Source of the DNA: Candidatus Sulfotelmatobacter sp. | Lineage (GTDB): Bacteria; Acidobacteriota; Terriglobia; Terriglobales; Acidobacteriaceae | NCBI GenBank assembly: GCA_030038255.1 | Contig: JASHPH010000238.1 | Span: 1-35,365 of the forward strand | Length of the DNA stretch: 35,365 nucleotides | Reading direction: 5' to 3' | Part shown: piece by piece, positions 2,519 to 9,067 of the stretch | Layout: every line of letters begins with the position of its first letter | Position numbering within the stretch: position 1 is the stretch's first letter | Translations under genes and position numbers: made by a program | Notes under the pieces: model-generated | Databases searched by the model: none | The model's input: only the letters and a program-made list of their open reading frames with translations | Told to the model about the DNA's origin: nothing

Positions 2519-4405
2519 CTATACTGCAGCCGCCGACGCCAGCCGGCTATCGAGTACCTCCCGCACTTTTCTCGCTAACGCTTCCCGCGTGAAGGGCTTG
2601 GGGAGAAAGAAACTGCCCTCTGCCAGAACGCCGTGTTCACCAACCGTCTGGCCGGTATAGCCGGACATGTACAGCACGCGAGTATCCGGCCGTTGCTTCG
2701 CGATATTGTCGGCCAAGGCTCTGCCGCTCATGCCGGGCATAACAACGTCAGTCAGGAGTAAGTGAATAACTCTGCCATTGTGATCCTGACTGATCTTCAG
2801 TGCCTCAGTGCCGTTCTCGGCTTCCAGAACGGAGTAGCCGCAGAGCTCAAGCAGTTGGCGGCTGAGCTTGCGGAGAGAGAGCTCGTCTTCGACCAGAAGC
2901 ACGGTCTCCTTCCCATGAAGAGAATCGGGCAAGTCTGCAGTTTGTCTCTGAGCGTCAAGAGCCTCTTCCACCTTAGGGAGGTAGATCTTGAACGTGGCTC
3001 CCGCTCCCGGCTCACTGTGAACTTCGATATAGCCGCCGCTCTGTTTGACGACTCCGTAGACTGTGGACAAACCGAGTCCCGTGCCCTTGGCTTTCCCCTT
3101 GGTGGTAAAGAAAGGCTCGAAGACTCGCGTGCGAGTCGCCGCATCCATTCCGATTCCGGTATCGATTACAGTAAGCAGAACATAGTCTCCTACTAGCACG
3201 GGATAGGGATAGCGGCGGACGAAGTTATCGTCCATATGAAAGTTAGAGGTTGAGATTTCCAATTGCCCACCGTTGGGCATGGCATCCCGAGCATTGACGG
3301 CTAGGTTCATGATGACTTGCTCGATCTGACCTGGGTCGGCTTTGATTCGCGCGAGCCCAGGGTCCAAATCGGTCCTGAGCTGAACGTCCTCGCCGATCAG
3401 ACGCTTCAGCATCTTCTCCATGTCTTTGACCACGGAGTTCAAGTCGAGGACCCGCGGGTCCATGACCTGCTGACGGCTAAACGCCAGTAACTGACGCGTC
3501 AGGGAAGCAGCTCGATGGCCGGCTTTCAGCATCTCTTCGACGCTGGTGCGCAGCGGACTCTCCGCTGCGGTACCTTCTTGGACAATTTCTCCGTAGCCGA
3601 TGATCACTCCGAGCAGGTTGTTGAAGTCATGGGCCACACCTCCAGAGAGTCGCCCGACGGCTTCCATCTTCTGGGACTGGCGAAATTGTTCCTCTAATCG
3701 CTTGCGTTCCGTGATGTCGCGATTGACGATGACCAGCTTTTCGACTTGTCCTGCTTTGACAATCGTGCTGGCCCTGGATTCAAGAGTCCGCCAACTCCCA
3801 TCTTTGTGGCGCATCCGGTACTCCAGCGTGCTGCCGGTCCCGGTAGACAACGCGTCTGCAGCCGCCTTCGCCACCTTGTCGCGATCTTCGGGATGGATCT
3901 GCTCGAGCGAGGTTGTAGTTCCCAACTCCTCCGCCGTGAAACCTAGGATCTTCTCGTACGATGGGCTGTTGTATATCCGCTTGCCGTTCGCATCAACCAC
4001 GGCGATCATGTCGGCCGCGTTTTCGCTGATCAGGCGGAACAATTCCTCGCGCTCAATCACATCCCTCCGGACTTGCTGAATCTGGAAATGTTGGTAGATG
4101 GTATAGATGTCGAACAGCAGGACAAGCCCAACTAGCCCGAGAATCGTGTCATTTAGTGGAGCAGTATTAAGTTCCGGGTGCCGCATGTGGAGGGCGGGGA
4201 AGCCGAAGGAAACAATGCCAGCCGTCAAGAGCAGCGTGATCAGAACCGCGCAGGCCCATAACCACCAATCGCGACGTTCGACGACACGCATGCGCTCGCC
4301 CATGCTAGTGCCGGCGTCTATACCTCCCATTGGTGAAGCGACGAATTCCGATGCTTCCATTGCAACCTGAGTCCAAGCACGAAGCCTTCCATGTCCAATA
4401 GGCAT
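2519..4405 (-). CDS. Membrane-bound hybrid histidine kinase (PAS-HisKA-HATPase-REC)
   Basis: A 628-residue kinase. From the chosen start it has two membrane helices (about 48-68 and 86-104) with only a short loop between them, a linker helix, one PAS domain (121-236), the HisKA domain with phospho-acceptor H259 in [14 protein letters not shown], an HATPase domain (N371 in [16 protein letters not shown] 415-420, GTGLGLS 441-447) and a C-terminal receiver (500-620, D553 in [12 protein letters not shown]603). The FNNLLG signature and C-terminal receiver place it with hybrid kinases common in Acidobacteria and delta-proteobacteria. The start is uncertain: the ATG at 4405 is used; a TTG at 4432 and several internal ATGs (4360, 4330, 4303, 4291) have no better ribosome site. 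The gene precedes the receiver-PilZ gene by 42 bases and diverges from the second hybrid kinase. Confidence 0.93.
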
Positions 4406-5134
4406 GTCGTTCTCTAACCCTTTTATGAACAAGTACTTGGCGGGACCAGAGTGGCCCCGAAAAGGATGCAGGGGCGAGTGGTTGTCTGCCAGATGGAATT
4501 CTCATCTGGATTGTGGACAGCCTAGGAGGGTTTGAACGTCAGAGCCATTTTCCCCTGGGGCGCTCACTCTGGTTACTTTTTGTATGCGTTTACCCAGAAC
4601 GAAATTGACAGCGTTCGGAGCTTTTGTTTGACTCAGACATACTTGAAACGGCAGGGTGCCGCCCATGTTTCCAGTCGGATTGCGGAGCTGCCGGAGAAAT
4701 CCGAAAGTCGAAGGGAGACAGCGATGTGCTGCTTGATCGCGTCTCCGGGCCTAGTGCGGGGGCCCATGCTTTCGAAAGAAATGCCAGGGGGTAGTGTGCA
4801 GTATGGCGTCCGCTCGATGTCTCTCGGGTCTTCGCAGTCAGTTGGGCTGTTTCCATGGTCGTGCGATCCAGCAGCGGCTCAGCCACGTATTCGGAGGTCT
4901 GAGGGTCCTGCTTCCACCTTTTGTACGCCGCCATCTTAAGCTCATACCACGTCATTCGCTTCTGTCCGCATCTTCCTCGATCCAATCGTCTGGAGTGTCG
5001 TTGGATGGCGGACTGCATTACCGCGGATTGACATGCCGTCCTCAACCCCATCCTGCGGACGCAACTTCACATCCACCCACGGCGTGTAGTCACGGTTGGC
5101 GCTCGGTGACCAGAGTTTCGATGGGGATCTCAAG
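4406..5134. other. Long spacer between two divergent kinase genes
   Basis: About 730 bases between oppositely oriented kinase genes. It holds the inverted repeat at 4489-4509. On the minus strand an open frame from 4958 to 4590 begins MTWYELKMAAYKRWKQD and looks protein-like for about 50 residues before becoming low in recognisable character; it has no clear ribosome site and is not called as a gene. A perfect TTGACA occurs near 5027 on the plus strand, but no acceptable -10 box lies 16-18 bases after it. Confidence 0.4.
4489..4509. promoter_or_regulatory. Perfect 7-bp inverted repeat, candidate operator
   Basis: CCAGATG (4489-4495) and CATCTGG (4503-4509) are perfect reverse complements around a 7-base spacer that itself contains the palindrome GAATTC. 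The site is about 85 bases upstream of the membrane kinase start, where an operator or promoter element would be expected. No regulator family can be assigned from the sequence. Confidence 0.35.
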
Positions 5135-7576
5135 ATGAGTTCCTCCGGCATTGACCTGAGCGGCGGCGGCTCCATAGAGTCACTGAGGCACGCAATGGCC
5201 ACGGAGATGACCAGCCGCGGCCCGACTAAAGTCCTCTTGCTTGAAGACAATGTCGAGGACGCACGGCTTGTCGTCAATACGTTAGCTGCCGCCGAACTGC
5301 CAATCGAGGCCGAGCAGGTTCAAAGCTTGGAGGAGTTTAAGGAGAGGTTGGCTTCCAACGCGTACGACCTGATTCTGTGTGACTTCGCCCTTCCCGGCTG
5401 CAATGGTTTGGACGTCCTTCGGTGGGTGAGGCAGTCTGGGCACGACACTCCTTTCATCTACTTCTCCGGCACATTCTGGGGCGACAATGCGGTCGATTGC
5501 ATCCGTGAAGGGGCTGCGGATTATGTCCGCAAGAGTGACCTGTCGCGCTTACCCCACGCCGTGCATCGTGCCCTCAGCGAACAGGAACTGCGGCGTAGGC
5601 ACCGGTACCTTGAACAGGAGAAGCGAAAGTCGGAAGAGGAATACCGCCTACTTTTCGAGAGCAACCCTCAGCCGATGTGGGTTGTTGATTGCACCAAACA
5701 CACTTTCCTCGCGGTGAACCAGGCAGCGATTTGGCAGTACGGATATTCGCGCGATGAATTTCTGCAGATGACCGACCTCGACTTGCAGTCGAAACCAGAG
5801 AGCAGCGACATTTCAGGAACAATTCTCGGCCAAGGTCCGCATGGAATCGCATCGCGGGCGAGTGAGACTCACCGCAAGAAGGATGGCACTCTTATTTTTG
5901 TCGAAATCTCCTGCAATCAGGTCAATTTCCGGGGAGTCGATGCCATGCTGGTTCTCGCGCAAGATGTCAGCGACCTCGTGAGAAATGAGCAGAAGCTCCG
6001 TCAATCAGAGGAGAGGTTTTTCGTTGCGTTTCGGCGCAGTCCAATGCCCATCACAATCAGCACACGAGATGAAGGACGCTACCTGGATGTAAATGAAGCC
6101 TTCTTGCGCCTGATGGGTCGTCGGCGACACCAAGTGGTCGGGCACACGGCTTTTGAACTTGGCGTGTGGGAAAGCACCGAGGACAGGGCCAAGGCTATTG
6201 AGGAGTTGGACCGGACAGGCGCAATCGACTCGTTCAAAACTGTAATCCATTCGCCGACAGTCGGGCGAAGATCGGTCGAAATTTCTGCCGAACTAATTGA
6301 ACTGGATGGAATTCCATGTGTCCTCGCCATCACCGACGATGTGACCGAAGAAAAGATCGTGGAAGAGCGGTTACGACAGTCTCAGAAGCTCGAGGCTGTC
6401 GGACGGCTGGCTGGCGGGATTGCACATGACTTTAACAATATGCTCGGCGTGATCATGGGCTACTGCGATTTGGCTGAGAGCAGGACCGATCACCAGAAAG
6501 TAAGAGGGGATGTTGTTCATATCAAGAAGGCGGCTCAACGTGCCTCCGCATTGACCACTCAGCTTCTAGCGTTCGGCCGACAACAAGTCCTGCGCCCCAG
6601 CATTCTCAACGTTAACACTGTCGTGGCGGGCGTGCTTCAGATGCTCCGCCGTGTGATCTCTGCAGACATCTGTTTGACATTTTCGGAACGCTGCCGCGGC
6701 GGAAACATAAGGGCAGACGTCAGCCAACTGGAGCAGGTCTTATTGAATCTCGTCGTGAATTCGCGCGATGCTATGGCCGACGGGGGCACGATCCTGATCG
6801 AAACTGCGGACGTGGAACTCGATGACAATTATGCGACGCTTCATCCCGGAGTTCATGCAGGTCGCTACGTTGCGCTTTCCGTGATTGACACGGGATGCGG
6901 TATGTCTGCAGAAATGATGTCGAAAATTTTCGAGCCGTTCTTTACGACCAAACTTCCGGGAAAGGGCACGGGGTTGGGGCTGTCCATGGTGTACGGCGCG
7001 ATGAAACAGGCGGGAGGACATATCGATGTCGCCAGCGAACAAGGTAAGGGCACAGCGTTCAGACTCTATTTCCCACGAGTTGAGGAAGAAACGGAACGGC
7101 ATTCATTTCGCGTCCCCGACTTATCACGGAGAGGCTCGGAGGTGATCTTGCTGGTAGAAGACGAACGTGACCTACGAGAGGTGACTGCCAAGCTGCTTCG
7201 AAACGAAGGCTACACGGTGTTGGAGGCAAAAGATGGCGCGACTGCAATCACCGTATCCACTCATCATATAGGACCGATTCATGTCCTGCTCAGCGATGTC
7301 ATGCTGCCCGACTGCGGTGGATTTGCAATCGCAGCCAGGATTGCTGAATCTCGCCCCGACATGAAGGTGATCTATACATCCGGCAACAACGCGCCTATTG
7401 ATGCCGCGCAAGAGTCTATCCACGTGACAGGCACTTTTCTCCAGAAGCCTTTCACCAAGCAGGCGTTGTTGAGTCAACTATGGGCGGTGTTGAAAAACGC
7501 CCACGAGTCGGAGGGCGGGATGGGGCTGGCGTCGAAAGCGACATTCGCCGGAGTTGAACGGCTCGCAGATCGATGA
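5135..7576 (+). CDS. Soluble hybrid histidine kinase with receivers at both ends
   Basis: About 813 residues without membrane segments. Order: receiver 1 (32-148; D83 in LCDFALPG, K133), a charged helix (148-170), PAS (170-285), a second PAS (290-410), HisKA with H431 in AGGIAHDFNNMLGVI, HATPase (VNSRDAMADGG 541-551, DTGCGM 585-590, GTGLGLS 611-617) and receiver 2 (668-790; D721 in LSDVMLPDCGG, a KPF lysine near the end). Both receivers keep the phosphorylatable Asp. An N-terminal receiver on a kinase usually means it is itself controlled by another kinase, and the divergent membrane kinase is a natural candidate (inference). The start is set at the ATG at 5135 (GGGGA upstream). The ATG at 5195, with GAGG six bases before it, is an equally good alternative that loses 20 residues. 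Confidence 0.92.
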   Translation: MSSSGIDLSGGGSIESLRHAMATEMTSRGPTKVLLLEDNVEDARLVVNTLAAAELPIEAEQVQSLEEFKERLASNAYDLILCDFALPGCNGLDVLRWVRQSGHDTPFIYFSGTFWGDNAVDCIREGAADYVRKSDLSRLPHAVHRALSEQELRRRHRYLEQEKRKSEEEYRLLFESNPQPMWVVDCTKHTFLAVNQAAIWQYGYSRDEFLQMTDLDLQSKPESSDISGTILGQGPHGIASRASETHRKKDGTLIFVEISCNQVNFRGVDAMLVLAQDVSDLVRNEQKLRQSEERFFVAFRRSPMPITISTRDEGRYLDVNEAFLRLMGRRRHQVVGHTAFELGVWESTEDRAKAIEELDRTGAIDSFKTVIHSPTVGRRSVEISAELIELDGIPCVLAITDDVTEEKIVEERLRQSQKLEAVGRLAGGIAHDFNNMLGVIMGYCDLAESRTDHQKVRGDVVHIKKAAQRASALTTQLLAFGRQQVLRPSILNVNTVVAGVLQMLRRVISADICLTFSERCRGGNIRADVSQLEQVLLNLVVNSRDAMADGGTILIETADVELDDNYATLHPGVHAGRYVALSVIDTGCGMSAEMMSKIFEPFFTTKLPGKGTGLGLSMVYGAMKQAGGHIDVASEQGKGTAFRLYFPRVEEETERHSFRVPDLSRRGSEVILLVEDERDLREVTAKLLRNEGYTVLEAKDGATAITVSTHHIGPIHVLLSDVMLPDCGGFAIAARIAESRPDMKVIYTSGNNAPIDAAQESIHVTGTFLQKPFTKQALLSQLWAVLKNAHESEGGMGLASKATFAGVERLADR

Positions 7577-8089: not shown

Positions 8090-8353
8090 TTAGGACGACC
8101 CGGACCTAGCGGCGGCCTTCTTTGCCGCTTCGGCCTTCGTTATAGCGTCGAGCTCGCACTGGTGCTGTTTGAGTTCGTCCGCCATCGATTGGGCTAATTC
8201 TCTGATCCCTAGCAAAGCTTTCGATAGCTCAGAACTTTCGTCTGTGCTATCACGAAGAAGCTCACAACGACCGACGATCACGGCCAGTTTGTTGATGTGT
8301 TCGTGCGCTAGGAAGCAACTCGGCCGATACTTTCCGAGGTTGATTTTCTCCAT
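8090..8353 (-). CDS. Mini-protein resembling a histidine kinase phospho-acceptor helix
   Basis: An 87-residue soluble protein. Residues 16-33 (AHEHINKLAVIVGRCELL) align without gaps to the HisKA region of the neighbouring hybrid kinase (AHDFNNMLGVIMGYCDLA): shared A, H, acidic residue, N, L, VI, G, C, acidic residue and L. H17 falls exactly on the phospho-acceptor histidine. A second predicted helix (about 40-68) would complete a two-helix dimerisation hairpin, followed by a lysine/alanine-rich tail. There is no ATPase domain and no room for one. It may be a phosphotransfer module, a dominant partner of a full kinase, or a degenerate remnant that is still translated. The start is the ATG at 8353; the GGGGAG upstream is about 14 bases away, farther than usual. 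A CRP-type palindrome lies 61 bases upstream. Confidence 0.7.
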   Translation of the reverse strand: MEKINLGKYRPSCFLAHEHINKLAVIVGRCELLRDSTDESSELSKALLGIRELAQSMADELKQHQCELDAITKAEAAKKAAARSGSS

Positions 8354-8413
8354 ACTGCCACTGCTTTCTCCCCCTCACAATTGGCCGAGTGTCCCACACT
8401 TCGGTACGATCCA

Positions 8414-8429
8414 TGTGATTAAAATCACA
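8414..8429. promoter_or_regulatory. CRP/FNR-type palindrome
   Basis: TGTGATTAAAATCACA is a perfect inverted repeat with the TGTGA-N6-TCACA spacing of the classical CRP consensus. It sits 61 bases before the start codon of the kinase-helix mini-protein on the minus strand and about 85 bases before the truncated transposase on the plus strand. A CRP/FNR-family regulator acting on the mini-protein gene is the simplest reading. No convincing -10 box was found between site and gene, so the position class of the site cannot be given. Confidence 0.45.
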
Positions 8430-8513
8430 CGCCGCATTACCAAAGTAAATAGAGTAGCCGGACTCTTAGGACTACTGATACCGTTCCCACTCTGTGGGTA
8501 TAACGTTCGCCTT

Positions 8514-9067
8514 TGCGGGAGGCGATGAAGGAGGCCGACATCGAGAGGATTCTGGAACGCGCCAAGAAGAAGTACCCGGAGGCCAAGCCGAGGATCATCT
8601 CCGACAACGGGCCGCAGTTCATCGCGCGCGACTCCAAGGAGTTCATTCGCATCTCGGGGATGACGCACGTGCGCACCTCGCCGTACTATCCGCAGTCGAA
8701 CGGGAAGATCGAACGCTGGCATAAGTCGCTCAAGCAGGAGTGCATCCGGCCGCTGACGCCGTTGACGCTGGAGGATGCGCGGCGCTTGATTCAGACCTAC
8801 GTGGATCACTACAACACGGTGCGTTTGCACAGCGCGATCGGCTATGTGACGCCGCAGGACATGCTGGCGGGGCGACAGGCCGAGATCCACGCGGCTCGCG
8901 ATCGCAAGCTGGAACAAGCTCGTCGGCAGCGGCAACTTCGCCGGCAACAGGCAACGTCTTCGACGGTTGCGCATTCGGCCGGCGCAGCTACAATGATTTC
9001 GCCAGGTGAAACGGAGGCGGGCACTCCAGGAAAAAGTCATCGGACGATAGACCCCAAGATGCCTTGA
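8514..9067 (+). pseudogene. 5'-truncated IS3-type transposase (OrfB, integrase core)
   Basis: About 180 residues of the C-terminal half of an rve/DDE integrase-core transposase of the IS3 group. The second Asp is in RIISDNGPQF and the Glu in YYPQSNGKIERWHKSLK, followed by the typical HYNTVRLHSAIGYVTPQDML block. The first catalytic Asp and the OrfA helix-turn-helix are missing: an in-frame TAA lies a few codons upstream (about 8501-8503), so homology begins abruptly. It cannot be an active transposase alone. The C-terminal tail, basic and Q/R-rich, appears complete. I did not find matching terminal inverted repeats, so the element's true borders are not defined. Confidence 0.85.

Follow-up and report, generated by a model that had tools for sequence, protein, structure and literature searches.

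A stand-alone DHp-like hairpin protein family in Candidatus Sulfotelmatobacter and other Acidobacteriota with a possible role as phosphatase or phosphate sink for receivers

Kinase, transfer and phosphatase activities share one domain in sensor kinases and are hence hard to separate. Spo0B, which passes phosphate from Spo0F to Spo0A, carries a second, ATPase-like domain in addition to its DHp hairpin, the isolated DHp of EnvZ (domain A) is reportedly a phosphatase without the catalytic domain, and the small hairpin protein Sda is not known to carry a phospho-acceptor motif. For CrdS and three other kinases it has been reported that the acidic residue following the phospho-acceptor histidine (H+1) is required for kinase activity and dispensable for phosphatase activity, that the reverse holds for Thr or Asn at H+4, and that the histidine merely enhances phosphatase activity; with D at H+4, the phosphatase activity of CrdS was abolished (PMC3510030). 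A count based on SMART lists 1556 of 42417 HisKA proteins without HATPase, 711 of them with the motif HE/DxxN/T, which were proposed to be split kinases, and the same article mentions that EnvZ domains stay active when split in vitro (PMC3591291). In the open-licence PMC literature on DHp-only or orphan DHp proteins and on HisKA proteins without HATPase we recognized no description of the family presented here, nor did we find anything in that literature on Sulfotelmatobacter histidine kinases.

The window analysed here is the whole stretch of 35,365 nucleotides of contig JASHPH010000238.1 from Candidatus Sulfotelmatobacter sp. (assembly GCA_030038255.1). On its minus strand it contains a mini-gene with a single in-frame ATG and a TAA stop codon (8353..8090). 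In the following, group 1 denotes the members from Candidatus Sulfotelmatobacter and relatives, i.e. the bacterial family of the window, and group 2 those from other lineages of the phylum. The features concerned are:

8090..8353, minus strand: gene for a stand-alone DHp (HisKA-like) hairpin protein of 87 aa, assigned from translation, homologues and the AlphaFold hairpin
8315..8317, minus strand: codon of Cys13 (H-4), specific to the family, with Cys in 20 of 25 aligned group-1 members versus 1 of 31 kinases
8303..8305, minus strand: codon of His17, presumably the phospho-acceptor; 24 of 26 aligned group-1 members, 42 of 42 kinases and 19 of 19 group-2 members have His here
8300..8302, minus strand: codon of Glu18 (H+1), acidic in the window protein, an acid in just 12 of 26 aligned members versus 42 of 42 related kinases
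8291..8293, minus strand: codon of Asn21 (H+4), the position on which the phosphatase activity of HisKA kinases reportedly depends (PMC3510030), Asn in 24 of 27 aligned group-1 and 19 of 19 group-2 members
8156..8158, minus strand: codon of Cys66, which is located in helix 2 and again specific to the family, present in 17 of 24 aligned members
8414..8429, no strand assigned: perfect CRP/FNR-type palindrome TGTGAN6TCACA, 60 nt upstream of the start codon, found by pattern match
5096..7576, plus strand: neighbouring hybrid kinase (PAS, HisKA, HATPase_c, two receivers; Pfam), convergent with the mini-gene, its DHp found by the mini-protein profile
2519..4432, minus strand: second hybrid kinase (PAS, HisKA, HATPase_c, receiver; Pfam)

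The first-pass annotation had read the mini-gene product as a free DHp-like hairpin without ATPase domain, and homologues, the kept histidine and the predicted two-helix fold all bear this out. AlphaFold predicts a hairpin of helices 14-35 and 42-84 with a mean pLDDT of 87.5, reaching 96-98 across residues 21-60. HATPase_c has no Pfam match within the 87 residues, HPt is absent from the four Pfam matches of the protein at E <=1, and an NCBIfam scan yielded one match only, which is sub-threshold and unrelated. Just upstream of the mini-gene promoter, 8513-9067 on the plus strand encodes part of a transposase integrase core (rve_3, E 3e-19), perhaps a truncated insertion element. A GAGGGGGAGAA stretch (8366-8376, minus strand) is situated about 12-22 nt 5' of the mini-gene start and by eye is seen again in front of several members (G017, G004, G012, G427); its distance to the start is too large for a usual ribosome site.

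As judged from profile comparisons, the mini-protein is a relative of kinase DHp domains. The gap-free alignment to the adjoining kinase that had been noticed earlier is confirmed, by eye and by profile alignment, with residues 16-32 AHEHINKLAVIVGRCEL falling on AHDFNNMLGVIMGYCDL of the 5096-7576 kinase and agreement at A16, H17, the H+1 acid, the H+4 N, the H+6 L, V25, I26, G28, C30, acid 31 and L32. In a single-sequence comparison of these two proteins the likeness is not significant (E 0.36), and Pfam HisKA (PF00512) gives the window protein 13.7 bits, under the cut-off of 26.9, such that surveys applying that cut-off would miss similar proteins. The family profile, which scores the window protein at 91 bits when made without the window row, matches the 5096-7576 kinase with 24.8 bits (E 4e-6, Z=5000; His aligned on His), the 2519-4432 kinase with 22.7 bits (E 2e-5, Z=5000; His17 on the phospho-acceptor His) and full kinases of other genomes with up to 46.9 bits. 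At E <=0.1, Pfam HisKA recognizes 8 of 20 group-1 rows (best 1.3e-4) and 15 of 15 group-2 rows; the SPOB_a model hits none of the 20 group-1 rows at the same threshold and 5 of 15 group-2 rows (best E 7e-4, under its cut-off of 28.1 bits). One group-1 row matches a zinc-finger model (E 0.013). Among PDB sequences the profile finds the DivL DHp (E 0.0039) and CckA (0.95); two coiled coils that are unrelated rank between or next to these. A fold search with the predicted hairpin produced no match at E <0.001; besides the DHp of ZraS and GacS, its top rows consisted mainly of unrelated hairpins (ING4, ESCRT-III and channel domains). Such hairpins are common and fold matches thus add little, which is why structure was left out as evidence of kinship.

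Homologues of the 87-residue protein, for which the first-pass annotation had proposed to search, exist in both groups: at least 28 stand-alone members were listed for group 1 and 19 for group 2. A second copy is located on another contig of the window's genome (42% identity, E 1.5e-14). Within the genus, 14 of 45 genomes contain a match at E <=1e-8, in 18 places; the open frame measures 56-153 aa at 17 of them and 346 aa at the other. Further copies are carried by other genera of the family, as found by searching 399 genomes from the class and 398 from the family; most matches there were full kinases, set apart by their long open frames, and 13 candidates per genome were scored, so that some copies may have escaped notice. 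The first scan of named genomes with the window protein alone retrieved no relatives. A DNA-pattern scan with a 7-row profile led to six loci already among those found, all from Acidobacteriota MAGs including Candidatus Sulfotelmatobacter, and no relative was found in the viral contigs and plasmids searched. The 28 listed group-1 members include three that are decayed or without a clear start (G007, G467, G616) and one cut by a contig end (G025), and the start sites of some others were guessed. In a tree built on about 52 columns, 26 of 27 group-1 members cluster apart from 41 kinase DHps (support 0.75); the exception, G369, groups with the kinase DHps and could represent an independent truncation. 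The ratio dN/dS is 0.15-0.63 in seven pairs of members, three of which stem from one trio and one of which has saturated dS.

Group 2 goes back to a single short match, G721, in another family of the phylum (396 genomes). A search of 99 genomes around G721 gave matches in 73, many of them full kinases, and from these 20 regions were picked for short open frames, G721's included; one of them (L261) holds a kinase and the other 19 hold stand-alone members. In these, as established by pattern search and check by eye, His and H+4 Asn are present in 19 of 19 and an H+1 acid in 13 of 19, and both His and Asn are invariant in a 15-row alignment. AlphaFold again predicts a hairpin (helices 9-32 and 39-62, mean pLDDT 88.0), and a profile comparison relates the two groups with 98% probability (E 1.6e-13), His on His. 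The group-2 members were found through protein likeness, not through neighbourhood, and 11 of the 19 loci feature a same-strand receiver-domain gene downstream, with a possible start -14 to +30 nt from the end of the mini-gene. One of these coupled regulators was scanned by Pfam and is of the NtrC type (receiver, sigma-54 domain, Fis HTH).

Residue conservation was compared in a common alignment of the 28 group-1 members with 42 kinases, gaps being set aside. Whether H17 is invariant had been raised as a question earlier, and the answer is divided: all group-2 members and 24 of 28 in group 1 keep the histidine, and four group-1 members are without it, two of which (G007 and G467) are unaligned at this position and have no His by eye. 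Both aligned members with R or A replacing His retain the H+4 Asn; conversely, G004, G596 and G606b deviate at H+4 (S, D or H) and keep His. The acidic residue directly following the histidine, which had been listed among the shared features, is present in the window protein as E18 and is not constant in the family. Members and kinases differ more clearly at H+1 (Fisher p 8e-8) than at H+4 (Asn in 42 of 42 kinases, Fisher p 0.056), p-values that serve merely as a guide since the kinases were chosen as matches to the mini-protein profile and the rows are related. F at H+2 occurs in 0 of 27 aligned members versus 39 of 42 kinases, K at H+5 in 20 of 27 versus 0 of 42, and Cys30 in 26 of 28 members versus 13 of 42 kinases. 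With His and the H+4 Asn kept and H+1 relaxed, the phospho-acceptor and phosphatase positions appear to be retained while the autokinase position is drifting. Assuming residue pairing along the hairpin, with the numbers at the two helix ends adding up to about 77, Cys13 would roughly face Cys66; a redox or metal site formed by the two is speculation.

The surroundings of the group-1 homologues are varied. Pairing with the adjoining hybrid kinase in particular was considered and is unsupported among the relatives. At 9 of 26 group-1 loci a gene for a kinase or receiver is found no more than 1.5 kb away, versus 24 of 325 random positions (p 2e-4, against a background of 20 stretches of the window's genome that rests on three kinase/receiver genes); 17 of 26 loci have none within this distance and some neighbourhoods contain no visible signalling gene. 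Member G017 is followed by a single-domain regulator with its first ATG 47 nt on, and the G012 and G441 members by a tandem LuxR-type HTH protein. At the locus of the His-less member G012 (L073), 4577-4999 codes for a 141-aa protein that SPOB_a matches weakly (E 0.014) and 5334-5918 for the tandem LuxR-type HTH protein, both on the plus strand. At the G003, G442 and G596 loci (L068, L140, L170), the mini-gene adjoins a large gene (some 930-950 aa in its complete copies) that by eye seems to be the same at each of these loci; other members differ in this respect. Fusions occur as well. A 334-aa protein (L171:2497-3498, minus strand) carries the mini-domain N-terminal to a HisKA_3 kinase and thus has two phospho-acceptor domains; here the mini-domain is above the Pfam HisKA cut-off (32.6 bits). 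In L175:2810-3442 (plus strand) a PilZ-like domain (E 4.6e-4, just below cut-off) is joined to a mini-domain with sub-threshold HisKA, and L178:2432-3037 (plus strand) is similar by eye. The mini-DHp of these two proteins keeps His and has G or T at H+4. The PilZ-like fusions hint at a possible link to cyclic-di-GMP.

Taken by itself, the single palindrome upstream of the mini-gene is unremarkable, as 0.91 boxes with at most one mismatch are expected by chance in the window. Within 250 nt upstream, 14 of the 28 group-1 members have such a box, nine of them a perfect one, and 11 of the 14 boxes are placed at 54-70 nt. The same box precedes 9 of 242 other ORFs (p 2e-10, the true significance being lower because the members are related) and, in a less fair sliding-window control, 25 of 2220 positions, and the reversed pattern with at most one mismatch is found upstream of 1 of 28 members. 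The window's genome contains 32 perfect TGTGAN6TCACA sites versus one of the reversed pattern, and in seven other genomes the numbers are 10-41 versus 0-2. Of the 31 regions read around the other sites in the window's genome (L106-L136), four have the site inside an ORF of at least 150 aa. Ten genes were chosen near sites, and nine have a Pfam match, among them cytochrome c assembly, cytochrome c, NiFe hydrogenase small subunit, pyruvate:ferredoxin oxidoreductase, citrate synthase and FTR1 iron permease, pointing to a respiratory or anaerobic regulon as the probable context of the box. Five CRP/FNR-type regulators are encoded in the window's genome. Three of them (L267, L269, L270) exhibit an N-terminal Cys cluster together with the helix sequence RETVSR, a combination which we take to be FNR-like. 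A further CRP/FNR-type regulator with an FNR-like Cys cluster and RETVSR helix is encoded at L068:9722-10435, about 3.7 kb from a mini-gene.

The role of the protein had originally been left open between accepting phosphate, heterodimerizing with kinases and blocking them. The kept His and H+4 Asn, the relaxed H+1 and the coupling to response regulators favour action on receivers over a purely structural antikinase or a kinase subunit. The explanation that we tentatively prefer, at somewhat less than an even chance, is that the free-standing DHp serves as phosphatase or phosphate sink for phosphorylated receivers, either of response regulators or of hybrid kinases. In this scheme, for which we infer homodimer, activity, partner and inducing condition alike, two copies would form the usual four-helix DHp bundle with His17 and Asn21 facing the receiver. 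Asn21 would direct hydrolysis of the aspartyl-phosphate, or the phosphoryl group would pass to His17 and be lost there. The mini-protein would probably be made when a CRP/FNR-type regulator switches on respiratory and anaerobic genes and would thus lower receiver phosphorylation in that state. It is not a kinase, given the missing ATP-binding domain and the relaxed H+1 acid in the family. Several observations speak against a phosphatase or sink: the window protein retains E at H+1, three members with His have S, D or H at H+4, the strong retention of His exceeds what a pure phosphatase needs, most group-1 loci (17 of 26) are without a nearby kinase or receiver gene, and K at H+5, as in Spo0B, equally suits a shuttle.

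Such a shuttle, in which His17 would carry phosphate between receivers in the manner of Spo0B without net hydrolysis, draws on the same retention of His in both groups and on the sequence NKL after it, which is absent from the 42 kinases and matches RHDWMNKLQLI of Spo0B; transfer from receiver to His should not need the H+1 acid, and the neighbouring hybrid kinases carry many receivers. We nevertheless regard it as rather unlikely, for retention of the H+4 Asn is nearly as strict as that of His, there are still members in which R or A replaces His, usually a single regulator is coupled, and SPOB_a matches fewer rows (none in group 1, five in group 2) than HisKA (8 and 15). If the protein instead handled no phosphate and bound or blocked a kinase DHp in a mixed bundle, the predicted DHp-type hairpin and an own regulated promoter would be apt for an inhibitor, and Sda/KinA and RetS/GacS are given as precedents (PMC12189002). 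This leaves the kept catalytic His and Asn without a reason and does not agree with group-2 genes being coupled to regulators, not kinases, and we consider it unlikely.

Less probable still is that the mini-protein constitutes one half of a split kinase whose His17 is phosphorylated by a separate ATPase-only protein. The proposal made for HisKA proteins without HATPase and the activity of split EnvZ in vitro would allow for it (PMC3591291), but 14 of 26 group-1 and 6 of 19 group-2 members are without an acid at H+1, none of the 27 aligned group-1 members retains F at H+2, and the neighbourhoods that were read showed no ATPase-only partner; we hold this to be very unlikely. A functionless kinase remnant or chance ORF might be suspected from G007, G467 and G616, which look decayed or lack a clear start, and from the grouping of G369 with kinases, yet the separate clustering of 26 of 27 group-1 rows (support 0.75), dN/dS <1 in seven pairs, the promoter box common to members and the family-specific K at H+5, Cys13 and Cys66 make this extremely improbable.

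As for action on receivers, the group-2 pairs in which the hairpin gene runs into a regulator gene allow the question to be tested with two small proteins. If the family keeps His and the phosphatase Asn and drops the autokinase residue together with the ATPase domain, it would represent evolution's own separation experiment, and it could explain the switching-off of some regulators in kinase-rich soil bacteria. A bolder version, which we deem quite unlikely as a whole, is that of a class of DHp-only response-regulator phosphatases, i.e. hairpins of about 60-90 residues that are never kinases and are coupled to their own regulator, with a Sulfotelmatobacter branch that is FNR-like-induced and redox- or metal-gated through Cys13-Cys66. 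If true, the redox state of the cell would directly reset receiver phosphorylation.

Compared with the HisKA (PF00512) DHp of hybrid kinases with an HDFNN H-box, the mini-protein shares the hairpin, the phospho-acceptor His, the H+4 Asn and the VIxGxC-acid-L tail; it differs in having neither sensor nor ATPase domain, in the relaxed H+1, in K at H+5 and in the added Cys13 and Cys66. Spo0B (PDB 1ixm) is similar as a DHp hairpin without kinase activity and with NKL after His, but is of the SPOB_a type, which none of the 20 group-1 rows matches. Domain A of EnvZ is likewise a DHp alone, but one engineered fragment and not a natural protein. Sda resembles the mini-protein as a small hairpin and RetS through DHp pairing, both acting on kinases (PMC12189002), and RetS differs as a large kinase-like protein. 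HisKA proteins without HATPase have been enumerated before, and some of them keep H-acid-xxN; as far as the portions available to us extend, that survey is a database count that describes no family (PMC3591291), whereas we have here a defined family in which the acid is relaxed. What appears to be new is thus the combination of such a family, relaxed in the H+1 acid, with coupling to a regulator in one branch (group 2) and a CRP-type box in the other (group 1).
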